Below are positions 19,087 to 23,312 of a stretch of 64,000 bases of DNA, one piece after another. The DNA lies in NCBI RefSeq assembly GCF_000012505.1, contig NC_007513.1:2046001-2110000 (forward strand), in the 5' to 3' direction. Made by a program: the position numbers and the translations under genes. Within the stretch, counting starts at the first letter, position 1; each line of letters opens with the position of its first letter. The notes under the pieces are model-generated. The model was not told where the DNA came from. It saw only the letters and a program-made list of their open reading frames with translations, and searched no databases. This DNA is from Synechococcus sp. CC9902 (GTDB taxonomy: Bacteria > Cyanobacteriota > Cyanobacteriia > PCC-6307 > Cyanobiaceae).

Positions 19087-19647
19087 CTAGGGCTGCGATG
19101 GAGGCATTAATGGCTGCAGTGGAAGCAACCGTTGGGCATCGTTCTCCGACACAAAAGCCGGAGGGAGGACCTCAGGGGGTGGGACCAGCAGAACAGATGC
19201 GGAGTCTGGCTCTAGGTCCAGGTCGGGAATTAATTCTGTCGACATCGCAGATGGCGCAACATCAATATCGGGGTCAGACCAGGCTGGTGCCGTCCAGGTC
19301 TTGTCTGCCGATGGAGGGAGCTGAAGCGCCAGGCTTGCCTCTGAAGCAGTGGCAACGGGCGGCGTGGTGGCCGCGTCTAGCTCCGGGGAGGCAAGCTTTC
19401 GGGCGGCTAAATCGACCTGCAAACTGGCGTCACCTTGGTGGATTGAACGCAGCGTCTGCAGGGAATCGCCTGGGAAGTAAGAGGGAGCAAAACGCTGTGT
19501 CTGGGCAGGCTTGATGTCGCTCTGCTGGCTCACCACACGATCGGTGATCCCAAACCCCATGGCGAAACAGCATCCGGCCACCAATGGACCAACCCAGAAA
19601 CGTGGCCGTCCCACGACGGTCGATTCAACAGGCTGGGATTGATCCAT
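19087..19647 (-). CDS. Membrane-anchored hypothetical protein
   Basis: This 186-aa protein starts MDQSQPVESTVVGRPRFW, has one membrane helix (VGPLVAGCCFAMGFGITD), then a long Ser/Pro/Asp-rich tail that looks disordered and extracytoplasmic. A possible periplasmic motif (FAPSYFPGDSLQTLRSIHQG) follows the helix. The open frame extends 34 codons upstream with atypical composition, so the ATG at 19647 is preferred. No family was recognised. It is the last backbone gene before the integrated element that starts near 19847. Confidence 0.55.
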   Translation of the reverse strand: MDQSQPVESTVVGRPRFWVGPLVAGCCFAMGFGITDRVVSQQSDIKPAQTQRFAPSYFPGDSLQTLRSIHQGDASLQVDLAARKLASPELDAATTPPVATASEASLALQLPPSADKTWTAPAWSDPDIDVAPSAMSTELIPDLDLEPDSASVLLVPPPEVLPPAFVSENDAQRLLPLQPLMPPSQP

Positions 19648-19995
19648 CAAGAGAAATTTGATCAAGGATATTTTGCCAGAGATTTCAACGCCAAACCGCA
19701 TTGAAACGCACAAAAAAATGACAAAGGACACACAGTCATCATCAAACAATCAAGAACTTCTTATTTGCAAAACAAATCTAAAAAACAAATTCAGATTGAT
19801 TCAAAGTGGCCAATGCAAATGGTTGTCCTGGCCCCATAGGCATCATCTAAGTGGTGTAATCGGCATTAATGCGCACGTATCTCTGGGAATGAGTGACTGA
19901 CTGGATTCTTACCAGTTAGGTTCACCGTAAACAATCTGTCAACACAGACCATATCCCAGTCGTGACGGTAGAGAGCGTCAACAAACTGCCAACAG
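19648..19995. other. Gene-free left flank of the integrated element
   Basis: This 348-base stretch holds no convincing gene. Its first 190 bases are AT-rich with poly-A tracts. From 19847 it carries the left copy of the argJ 3' end, then an ACTGG-ATTCTTA-CCAGT dyad near 19900, a GTAAAC motif at 19927-19932, and the start region of the integrase fragment. Confidence 0.5.
19847..19880. repeat. Distal attachment-site copy (displaced argJ 3' end)
   Basis: Read on the minus strand this ends ...TAC GTG CGC ATT AAT GCC GAT TAC ACC ACT TAG, the argJ C terminus with synonymous changes. It has no argJ sequence before it: the upstream residues (SVTHSQR) do not match. It is the partner of 22074-22107. 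Confidence 0.75.
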
Positions 19996-20640
19996 ATGCC
20001 TGAGACGAGCACTCAATCTCAGGTCCTGGATCGGGTCGATTTACAAGGCGGCAAACGAAACAACGCGAACGTGTTTCGCAACGGTCAACGGGGTGGTCGG
20101 TGGTCTCTCTACTTCTTCAACCCAGAGACGCAGAGCAGGCATCGGTTCGTTCTCAGACACCCCAACGGAGGATTCCCAGACCCAACACCAGCAGGGCTGG
20201 ATGAGGCACTGGAACTGGCGCAAGAGCGATACATCGAACTCCGAACCAAGGCAGACAGAGGAGAAGCGGTCAACGTCCTGACCATTGGGGAGATGGTGAA
20301 TCGGTTCCTAACGAAGGAGCAACGCCGAATCAGCAGCACACCTCACGAGGGGATCACCGATGGACGCTTTCGTCTGATCAGAAACCAGACCAGGCATTTC
20401 CTCGACTTCTGCTCTCGGAAGGGGGGATGTGGAGCAAGCAAGCAGGTCCACCTCTTCCGACGCACGTACCTGGACACCTATCAGCAGTGGAGACAAGACA
20501 CCACAGACGCAGTGGACAAGGCAGGACGCGTGCTGCCACGTCCAACAACCCTGAATGGAAAGGTATCCAGAATCGTCGTACACCTGATCCAAAGAAAAAC
20601 TTTAAAAAGGACTGCACCAACTAACCCGTCAAAGGTCTAG
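19996..20640 (+). pseudogene. Truncated tyrosine-type integrase
   Basis: The 214-codon frame looks like the N-terminal half of a phage or island tyrosine recombinase: an Arg-rich start with GGRWSLYFFNPETQSRHRFVL (the beta-sheet arm-binding domain), an amphipathic helix (ELAQERYIELRTKADRG) and a core-binding domain (RLIRNQTRHFLDFCSRKG to LDTYQQWRQDTTDAVDKAG, then PTTLNGKVS). The catalytic domain with its Arg, His, Arg and Tyr residues is missing. Near 20570 the reading frame seems to shift: a neighbouring frame continues RRTPDPKKNFKKDC and then stops. It reads inward from the distal attachment copy, as an integrase should. It is probably inactive. Confidence 0.7.
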
Positions 20641-20731
20641 GCAGCGATCCTATAAATCCAGAGCACAACGCGTACCAAGTTTGTTGCAGCTCAATATTCA
20701 AGTATAGTTACTTTTAATGATCAGTCTTTAA

Positions 20732-21106
20732 ATGAAAAGCCTCGCATTTGGACTCGCATCAGCATTGCTCTTAAGCGCAACCGCCTCTGCTCAAGAGCTG
20801 AAAACATATAATCCATATTTTGATCCATCTATTGTGGGCGCCACAGGCGTAGACACAGGTGTAGATTTAACCGAAGCGCTTAAGATTAATTACGCAAACT
20901 GTGTAATGAAACATATGTCAAGAAATATTGTTAATAACGGGGAAGGAGGGACATTTGTAGATTCGGATGCAGCATTGCTCAATTGCAATTGCATTGCAAT
21001 TACAATTCAGAAGGGCGAATCGCAGGAACAATGCAACAACGCATATGCAAACCCTCAACGTATTACCAGACCTCAAGCATTTGACGCTGGATTAACAAAA
21101 TACTGA
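20732..21106 (+). CDS. Small secreted hypothetical protein (element cargo)
   Basis: This 124-aa protein has a classic signal peptide (MKSLAFGLASALLLSATASA, cut before QELKTY). The mature part holds four Cys: NYANCVMKH, then LLNCNCIAIT and EQCNNAY, which could form two disulfide bonds. Codon usage is more AT-rich than the backbone. It lies inside the argJ element, 91 bases after the broken integrase. No family was recognised. Its good signal peptide and clean frame suggest it is still expressed. Confidence 0.6.
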   Translation: MKSLAFGLASALLLSATASAQELKTYNPYFDPSIVGATGVDTGVDLTEALKINYANCVMKHMSRNIVNNGEGGTFVDSDAALLNCNCIAITIQKGESQEQCNNAYANPQRITRPQAFDAGLTKY

Positions 21107-21310
21107 ACCAGGATCGCGTTAACTAGCTAAAAGACACAGCAAAGAAAATCACAACTAGAACTCTTTAGGTCTATGCAGAGCGTCCTTCCTGGTCCTTCTA
21201 GGGCAGTCTCAGAGCGTGAACACCTCTGAACTTGTTGCGCAATCAACCTTTCGAGAGCAACTAAGTTAGCTTTTCAAAATAAAGTCTGTGGTGCGCTAAC
21301 AGCACTCCAC

Positions 21311-21757
21311 TCACCTCTTTAGAACTCCCATAACAATGACTTGGGGATTACCACTACACTTATAAGAAGTAGAGCTGCTTTCAAGGCACTCATATACTTT
21401 CAGCTTGCCATTGTCTTCGCTATACTGCGTCAACCAGGTCAATGGAAAGTTAGAAGTTCGATCGGCTTTTACTTCATCCAGTCGCTGAGTAAATATAACA
21501 CCACGAGCATTAACAGCTAATACCTGTCCATCAATAATGCAGTATCCATAAGCCCCGAAGCCTTCATACTCTTCATACTTTGGACTGACGTATTTGACAT
21601 TGTCCGTAGTGCATTTCGAAGCCAATTCCAATTGCTGGCGCAGATCAGCTATCAAGGGAGCTTGAGGCAGTGCACCACTTAACGATTCAGAGATGCCGCC
21701 AGCAGGTGCAGGAAAAACACCGATCAACGAGAGGAGAGCAATACTCTGGTGCAACAT
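21311..21757 (-). CDS. Secreted hypothetical protein (element cargo)
   Basis: This protein of about 148 aa begins MLHQSIALLSLIGVFPAPAGG, a signal peptide. The mature part has four Cys: SKCTTDN, GYCIIDG, YECLESS and YKCSGNP, spaced to allow two disulfides. It contains KYVSPKYEEYEGFGAYGYC and a C-terminal strand (PQVIVMGVLKR). An ATG four codons earlier (21769) is possible. It is convergent with the other cargo gene; both encode small Cys-containing exported proteins. No family was recognised. Confidence 0.55.
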   Translation of the reverse strand: MLHQSIALLSLIGVFPAPAGGISESLSGALPQAPLIADLRQQLELASKCTTDNVKYVSPKYEEYEGFGAYGYCIIDGQVLAVNARGVIFTQRLDEVKADRTSNFPLTWLTQYSEDNGKLKVYECLESSSTSYKCSGNPQVIVMGVLKR

Positions 21758-22073
21758 AGTTTTTGGCAAGACCTCTTAGTCCGCAGAGAATGATTTAATC
21801 AACTTAACTTCCTCGACTAGGTGATTATGGCAGAGACCCAAAAACATACATAACACCTGGTCCAAATAAGCAACGCAAGACAACTTCTGATCAACTCGCT
21901 CCACAGATGTCAGCGAGTGAACCTAGTCAGAGGCAATCAAGTCCAAGAGACGACCATCAGCGTCCACGAGCCTGTGTCGGACTCCCTGGACATACGTTGG
22001 GAGGTAAACGTAAACAAGACGTAAACAGGCTTGGCTGATCTCCCAAATCCACTGCACTGCAATAAATTTGGGA
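21758..22073. other. Gene-free right flank of the integrated element
   Basis: These 316 bases hold no convincing gene. Their end, next to argJ, carries three GTAAAC motifs (22004-22026) 48 bases from the argJ tail, and a CTGCACTGCA near-repeat at 22051-22060. These may be recombinase-binding sites. Confidence 0.45.
22004..22026. repeat. Clustered GTAAAC motifs, candidate arm-type sites
   Basis: GTAAAC occurs at 22004-22009, 22010-22015 and 22021-22026, and once more at 19927-19932 by the other end of the element. Short direct repeats beside an attachment core are typical integrase arm sites. The role here is inferred from position only. Confidence 0.4.
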
Positions 22074-22107
22074 CTAAGTGGTGTAGTCGGCGTTGATGCG
22101 TACATAT
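22074..22107. repeat. Proximal attachment-site copy (functional argJ 3' end)
   Basis: This is the in-frame end of the intact argJ. It matches 19847-19880 at 29 of 34 positions, with the five differences all transitions at third codon positions. Confidence 0.75.
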
Positions 22108-23312
22108 TGATCCGACAAATCGCATCCCCAAGCACAACCCATACCAGGCCCCTCACCGATGCCGAGACGGATCTGAACGGTGTCCTGGCGAAGAACATCG
22201 CTGGCCGCTGCACGGTCAAACACCACCGGTTGCCCCTGATCCATTAGTTGATGGGGGCCAATCCAAAGTTCCACAGCTTCGGGGTCGAACGCGACATCAG
22301 CCCGACCGGCCGCCGCAACGATCCGCCCCCAATTGGGATCACGGCCATGCACAGCTGTTTTCACAAGGGATGACCCACAGATCGTGCGCGCCACGCGCAA
22401 CGCCGCAGCCTCATCCTCAGCACCATTCACCTGAACCTCCATCAAGCAGGTGGCTCCTTCGCCATCGCGGGCAATTGCTTGCGCCAATTGCTGCATCACC
22501 TGCGTGAGGCCCGCCTCCAAATCGGCATGGTGCTCCTCAGCCAAGGGCGCTCCAGCGCTGAAGGCCAACACCGTGTCGTTCGTGCTGGTGTCGCCATCCA
22601 CGGTGATGGCATTGAACGAGCGCTCAACCGCTCGACGCACCATCCCACGCCAAATTGCTGCATCCATGCCGGCATCGCAGCTGAAGAAGCCGAGCATCGT
22701 GGCCATGTTCGGATGAATCATTCCGGAGCCCTTAGCCATCCCGCCAATCCGCACCGTCCGCCCCCCCAACTCAGCCTGAACAGCCGCCTGTTTCTCCACA
22801 AGATCTGTGGTGAGAATCGCCTGCGCTGCAGCGGGCCCACCGCTATCCGACAACGCTGCAATCAGAGACCCCAGGCCGGACAACAGCGTTGGCATGGGTA
22901 TCGGCACACCAATCACACCGGTGGAGCAGATCAACACGGTGTCGTGATCAAGGCCCAGCTGGTCGGCAACGGCTTGCGTCGCTCGCTGACTATCCAACAA
23001 CCCACGGTCTCCAGTGCAGGCGTTGGCCTGGCCCGAGTTGATCAACACGGCTCGAGTCCGACCGTCTTGGCTGGAGAGCCGATCGGCACAGAGGTCAACA
23101 CAGGCGGCCCGCACCACGGACGTGGTGAACGTGCCCGCACACACCGCTTCGTCTGGGGCGAGGATCAAGGCCAGATCTGGGCGACCCGAGGGCTTAAGGC
23201 CCGCCACAACCCCTGCCGCCTCAAAACCGTTCGGCGCCGTGACCCCACCATCGATGGGAGACCAAATAGAAGCCATCGCTTCGGCCGCGTCGGCAAGAGA
23301 GACTTCACTCAT
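22074..23312 (-). CDS. argJ: Bifunctional ornithine acetyltransferase / N-acetylglutamate synthase
   Basis: ArgJ recycles the acetyl group from N-acetylornithine to glutamate in arginine synthesis. The 412-aa proenzyme cleaves itself before a Thr; that site is visible as HPNMATMLGFF, preceded by IGGMAKGSGMI. Other landmarks are VVAGLKPSGRPDLALI, INSGQANACTGDRG, FNAITVDGDTSTNDT and PNWGRIVAAAGRA. The C terminus is RINADYTT. The 3' end matches a copy 2.2 kb away and is the apparent integration site of the neighbouring element; the gene itself is intact. It is divergent from coaE with only 14 bases between starts. Confidence 0.96.
   Translation of the reverse strand: MSEVSLADAAEAMASIWSPIDGGVTAPNGFEAAGVVAGLKPSGRPDLALILAPDEAVCAGTFTTSVVRAACVDLCADRLSSQDGRTRAVLINSGQANACTGDRGLLDSQRATQAVADQLGLDHDTVLICSTGVIGVPIPMPTLLSGLGSLIAALSDSGGPAAAQAILTTDLVEKQAAVQAELGGRTVRIGGMAKGSGMIHPNMATMLGFFSCDAGMDAAIWRGMVRRAVERSFNAITVDGDTSTNDTVLAFSAGAPLAEEHHADLEAGLTQVMQQLAQAIARDGEGATCLMEVQVNGAEDEAAALRVARTICGSSLVKTAVHGRDPNWGRIVAAAGRADVAFDPEAVELWIGPHQLMDQGQPVVFDRAAASDVLRQDTVQIRLGIGEGPGMGCAWGCDLSDQYVRINADYTT

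Follow-up and report, generated by a model that had tools for sequence, protein, structure and literature searches.

The 2.2-kb stretch at 19847-22107 is almost certainly the decayed deletion remnant of an argJ-specific integrative element that supplied its own argJ tail. This reading draws on sequence comparison: repeats mark the borders, sister genomes have the empty site, an intact integrase is homologous to the fragment, its family recurs at argJ beside a tail copy, and arm repeats are conserved. The remnant lies within a window of 64 kb, the whole stretch of DNA analysed, which spans 2046001-2110000 of a single-contig genome of 2,234,828 bases (G000). The original prediction of an integrative-element remnant with the argJ 3' end as attachment site is borne out by the empty sites, the intact integrase relative and the recurrence at argJ. 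It understated the breadth of the phenomenon: argJ-specific elements form a series that spans the family, and the remnant is a decayed example of it.

Results

The features of the locus, in window coordinates, are as follows.

19087-19749, minus strand: resident ORF of 220 aa, immediately downstream of argJ in empty genomes
19847-19880, minus strand: distal attachment site (core 19851-19870), read as the resident argJ tail after displacement; the resident DNA next to it adjoins argJ in G002 and G025
19926-19944, minus strand: putative integrase-side arm-type site, TGTTGACAGATTGTTTACG, aligned with the G007 element end
19976-19994, minus strand: second putative integrase-side arm-type site, TGTTGGCAGTTTGTTGACG
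19996-20574, plus strand: integrase fragment, codons 1-193 of a tyrosine integrase of ~543 codons, catalytic domain missing; the 214-aa ORF then leaves the homology and continues to 20640
20732-21106, plus strand: cargo ORF, 124 aa, N-terminus signal-peptide-like by eye
21311-21769, minus strand: cargo ORF, 152 aa, TTG start
22008-22027, minus strand: putative arm-type site on the argJ side, a pair of TGTTTACGT repeats with 11-bp spacing, from 47 nt past the argJ stop, with spacing and position as in most occupied loci
22041-22073, minus strand: hairpin directly 3' of the argJ stop, inside the element, 15 bp, -19.2 kcal/mol, no T run
22074-22107, minus strand: argJ-side attachment site, the argJ tail, read as element-supplied from the repeat and tail comparison (core 22078-22097)
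22074-23312, minus strand: argJ, 412 aa, target gene, intact; Pfam ArgJ E 6e-143, the match running to the final profile position

The two attachment sites form a direct repeat of 85% identity (29/34) with a spacing of 2227. On the minus strand the argJ copy reads A TAT GTA CGC ATC AAC GCC GAC TAC ACC ACT TAG and the distal copy A TAC GTG CGC ATT AAT GCC GAT TAC ACC ACT TAG. All five mismatches are third-position transitions, and YVRINADYTT followed by a stop is encoded by either copy; the repeat search and the sequence thus agree with the two 34-nt tails and synonymous differences first described. The G+C content of the insert is 47.5%, compared with 56.6% for the window. No tRNA was found in the 64-kb window, and the insertion site is argJ. 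The hairpin that follows the argJ stop resembled an element-supplied terminator (z -4.3), but it has no T run and is not common to other argJ elements, so it is not put forward as a trait of the series.

Site occupancy was scored in 26 argJ regions of the same genus, among them the G019 contig, which is not classifiable. The site is empty in 14 of the 26 (G002, G025 and twelve others), where argJ is followed within about 270 bases by a homologue of the 19087-19749 ORF. It is occupied in 11, with 1.1 to 10.5 kb between argJ and that homologue. The proposed comparison with related genomes therefore found argJ joined directly to the resident downstream gene, although the junction had been misplaced: it was expected after 19880, whereas argJ lies on the minus strand, so that the DNA to be joined is that below 19847. 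In G002 and G025, the closest relatives with a readable site (argJ 94% identical), the DNA past the argJ stop aligns over its full length with the DNA below 19847. Elsewhere, the distal tail copy in G012, G003, G028 and G014, and the far copy in G007, is followed by the sequence found after the argJ stop in the empty genomes G033 and G021. A recognisable distal tail copy is absent from occupied G001, G022, G006 and G018.

The first 193 residues of the 214-aa ORF (19996-20640) are 92% identical to residues 1-193 of an intact 543-aa integrase in G007, and the broken tyrosine integrase originally recognised in the insert is thus confirmed as a retained 5' portion. The fragment alone gives no integrase match in Pfam or PHROGs; it is identified as an integrase because its intact G007 relative scores above the curated Phage_integrase cut-off (PF00589). 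In an alignment of 12 relatives, R323, K360 and R447 are invariant and Y479 is present in over 90%; we take these to be the catalytic positions from general knowledge of the family. Y444 of the alignment sits where many tyrosine recombinases have histidine. No further integrase segments were found elsewhere in the 64-kb window, nor a second relative of the argJ integrase in this genome.

Of 300 genomes of the family, 40 contain relatives of the integrase. When 292 genomes of the phylum were searched with a profile, matches were confined to the window genome's own bacterial family. Wherever integrase and argJ share a contig the integrase lies 3' of argJ (21/21 genomes: G000, G007, G028, G023, G270, G219, G056, G106, G258, G102, G077, G199, G144, G251, G231, G217, G060, G297, G159, G165 and G282). 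In G155, G226, G019, G213 and the MAG Synechococcus sp. ARS1019 (L063), the contig ends before argJ, and the integrase borders on the same downstream neighbours. Of 22 distinct loci, 19 have an argJ-tail copy that precedes the integrase start by about 115-210 bp. Thus the search for related integrases at argJ, suggested at the outset, placed them there in every genome with a readable position, mostly beside an argJ-tail copy. Across 963 kb of collected regions, the argJ core occurs at argJ, downstream of argJ or, where the contig stops short of argJ, next to the integrase. Judged from these relatives, the broken integrase was probably specific for argJ.

C-terminal integrase pieces of ~50 residues lie away from argJ in five genomes. 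These are stretches of ~150 bp, 82-92% conserved, that encode only ~50 residues of the catalytic end and have no argJ core nearby (L130-L133 near 5000; L065:1215-1382); no argJ core was found in control regions around off-site integrase fragments (L130-L133, L137).

A direct-repeat pair of 8-9 nt, spaced exactly 11 bp apart and starting +45 to +50 past the argJ stop, is present in 14 of 22 occupied loci. The pair is TGTTTACGTCTTGTTTACGT at +47 in this window and, as a further example, GGTAACACCTCGGTAACACC in G106; in G023 a pair lies at +71. None of the 14 empty argJ loci has a pair with 11-bp spacing, the sole hit being a pair of spacing 12 in resident DNA of G030, and the chance rate for any such pair is 5% of random windows. 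Many loci also have similar repeat pairs in the interval that separates the integrase from the distal tail. By likeness to known tyrosine integrases, the repeat pairs are taken as putative arm sites of the integrase.

The origin of the two tails can be read from their differences. The displaced tail (19847-19880) has 2 mismatches to the argJ end of G025 and 3 to that of G002. The present argJ tail has 5 and 6, respectively; against the G007 element's distal site it has 3. That the displaced copy is nearer the sisters' argJ ends, and the argJ copy nearer the G007 element, supports the earlier claim that the element brought its own tail and displaced the resident one. At the integrase-side end, G000 and G007 share homology as far as the tail itself, where G007 reads TAC GTA CGC ATC AAC, the present argJ TAT|GTA CGC ATC AAC, and the distal copy TAC|GTG CGC ATT AAT. 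If the G007 distal end stands for the element's own site, these few sites would be consistent with one crossover, placed between tail positions 4 and 7.

The two cargo ORFs (124 and 152 aa) have no relatives in 201 genomes of the family and no match in Pfam or PHROGs. A prophage was considered and rejected. No phage structural or packaging genes were found in the 2.2-kb insert, whose ORFs are without a Pfam or PHROGs match, and the argJ integrase has no match in viral contigs or phage records. Elements of the main group carry the integrase at their far end, pointing towards argJ; G023, G060 and G217 have a distant integrase relative, which adjoins argJ in the same direction. Tandem argJ tails, argJ's own included, number 3 in G102, 3 in G199 and 4 in G159. 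The G159 locus (L127) has argJ-tail cores at 1326, 4135, 5367 and 6653, which are 1.2-2.8 kb apart, with small gene units between them that contain no integrase.

Element cargo varies from genome to genome and includes serine resolvases; a scan of a few argJ-element proteins turned up no recognisable transfer genes. Several individual cargoes are recorded here as observations in their own right. The G007 element carries a gene similar to druA of Druantia (L041:3587-4450), possibly a phage-defence cargo. The G144 element encodes a single-subunit RNA polymerase of phage type (L109:1611-4079), full-length and about 28% identical to the Synechococcus phage enzymes; this element is possibly a phage satellite. 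A block of two genes (about 354 and 265 aa, the first with a GSCFA motif) recurs beyond the argJ islands, on their far side, in three genomes (L034, L038 and L041). In G102, two tandem argJ elements (L105, 5152-7022 and 13297-14946) together hold ten precursor genes of prochlorosin type with a Nif11 leader; two further precursors are in L062 (Prochlorococcus AG-412-I05), and one adjoins argJ in L141. Recombinases near prochlorosin clusters have been noted before, the argJ site not (PMC10783134).

Discussion

The locus has the features of a gene-restoring tyrosine-integrase island: the integrase lies at one end of the element, repeats of the target end form the borders, the frame of the target is restored, and relatives have an uninterrupted site. 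The catalytic act and the order of events would be as follows. The tyrosine integrase of the element would recombine attP, the element's version of the final ~24-34 nt of argJ, with attB, the 3' end of chromosomal argJ. argJ would be restored with the imported tail, because the element copy encodes the same C-terminus and stop codon, and the resident tail would be carried to the distal border of the insert, next to the integrase gene. A deletion would later have taken out the integrase's catalytic portion, and probably a large share of the element with it; the surviving 2.2 kb still have the two attachment sites and their arm repeats. The remnant is presumably immobile at present, the genome having no intact relative of its integrase.

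It is unlikely that the 2.2-kb unit is instead an integrase-less cargo unit, similar to a MITE or satellite, that is mobile by way of argJ integrases from other elements. Such a unit would account for the retention of both attachment sites and arm repeats, and integrase-less units with argJ-tail copies do occur in G012, G003, G014 and the G159 stack. However, searches of 201 genomes with each cargo ORF gave no second copy of the 2.2-kb unit, the leftover 5' end of the integrase gene points to a plain deletion, and the genome offers no intact argJ integrase of its own. It is very improbable that the second tail arose by local duplication, or by homologous recombination with the argJ region of another strain, with no site-specific recombinase involved. 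All tail differences are synonymous, as they would be in any homologous argJ fragment, yet the distal copy ends at 34 nt, whereas homologous exchange usually brings longer stretches of argJ. Moreover, the arrangement of integrase beside tail copy recurs across the family at one nucleotide-level site, with arm-type repeats where they are expected. A match by chance, or by sequence constraint on unrelated sequence, has a negligible probability and nothing in its favour except the shortness of the repeat; it is already refuted by a score of 29/34 where the next best place for the argJ 34-mer in 64 kb and the best of 300 random 4.5-kb Markov sequences each reach 21/34, and by a 20-nt core pattern that, with synonymous changes allowed, matches the 64-kb window only twice, both times at the tail copies.

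Given the deletion remnant of an argJ-specific element in this genome and its relatives elsewhere, argJ is apparently a recurrent and undescribed landing site for foreign genes across picocyanobacteria. No report of argJ as an attachment site was found in the literature searched, which is weak evidence of absence as subscription papers were mostly outside its coverage. A broader proposal, tentative and on balance doubtful, is that the argJ 3' end is a family-wide undescribed picocyanobacterial hotspot with its own integrase family and tandem stacking, and a main route for prochlorosin precursor, defence and other strain-specific genes, including integrase-less units still moved in trans.

Gene turnover in marine Synechococcus and Prochlorococcus is usually tied to tRNA-associated islands. 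With a conserved protein-coding site that has an integrase family of its own, exchanged genes can be sought at a precise and predictable position. The argJ elements account for the variable stretch beside argJ in many strains, and they tie prochlorosin-type precursors and other cargo to a definable mobile element. The short conserved argJ attachment sequence could also serve for site-specific insertion in picocyanobacteria, which are hard to engineer.

In E. coli, e14 and phage 21 insert at icd, carry the 3' end of the target gene and restore it. The argJ elements share this restoration of a gene end; the gene, the host and the type of element differ. Tycheposons of Prochlorococcus and other marine bacteria are likewise cargo-bearing elements with tyrosine recombinases in marine picocyanobacteria; they are described at tRNA genes (PMC10872708), whereas the argJ family uses argJ. 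SGI1 and related islands insert at trmE, as the argJ elements do at argJ, at the 3' end of a protein-coding gene. SGI1 is mobilisable, is moved by IncC plasmids and belongs to Gammaproteobacteria (PMC8409611), in contrast to the argJ elements, in which no transfer genes were recognised among the few proteins scanned. The islands and prophages at dusA (PMC4482086) resemble the argJ elements in having one tyrosine integrase family for one protein-coding gene, a gene restored by an element-supplied end, semiconserved direct repeats of ~21 bp and highly variable cargo. The dusA islands use the 5' end of their gene. The argJ elements differ in the gene, in using its 3' end and in being confined, within the genomes searched, to one bacterial family. 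The mechanism at argJ is thus of a known kind, that of the dusA and trmE islands.
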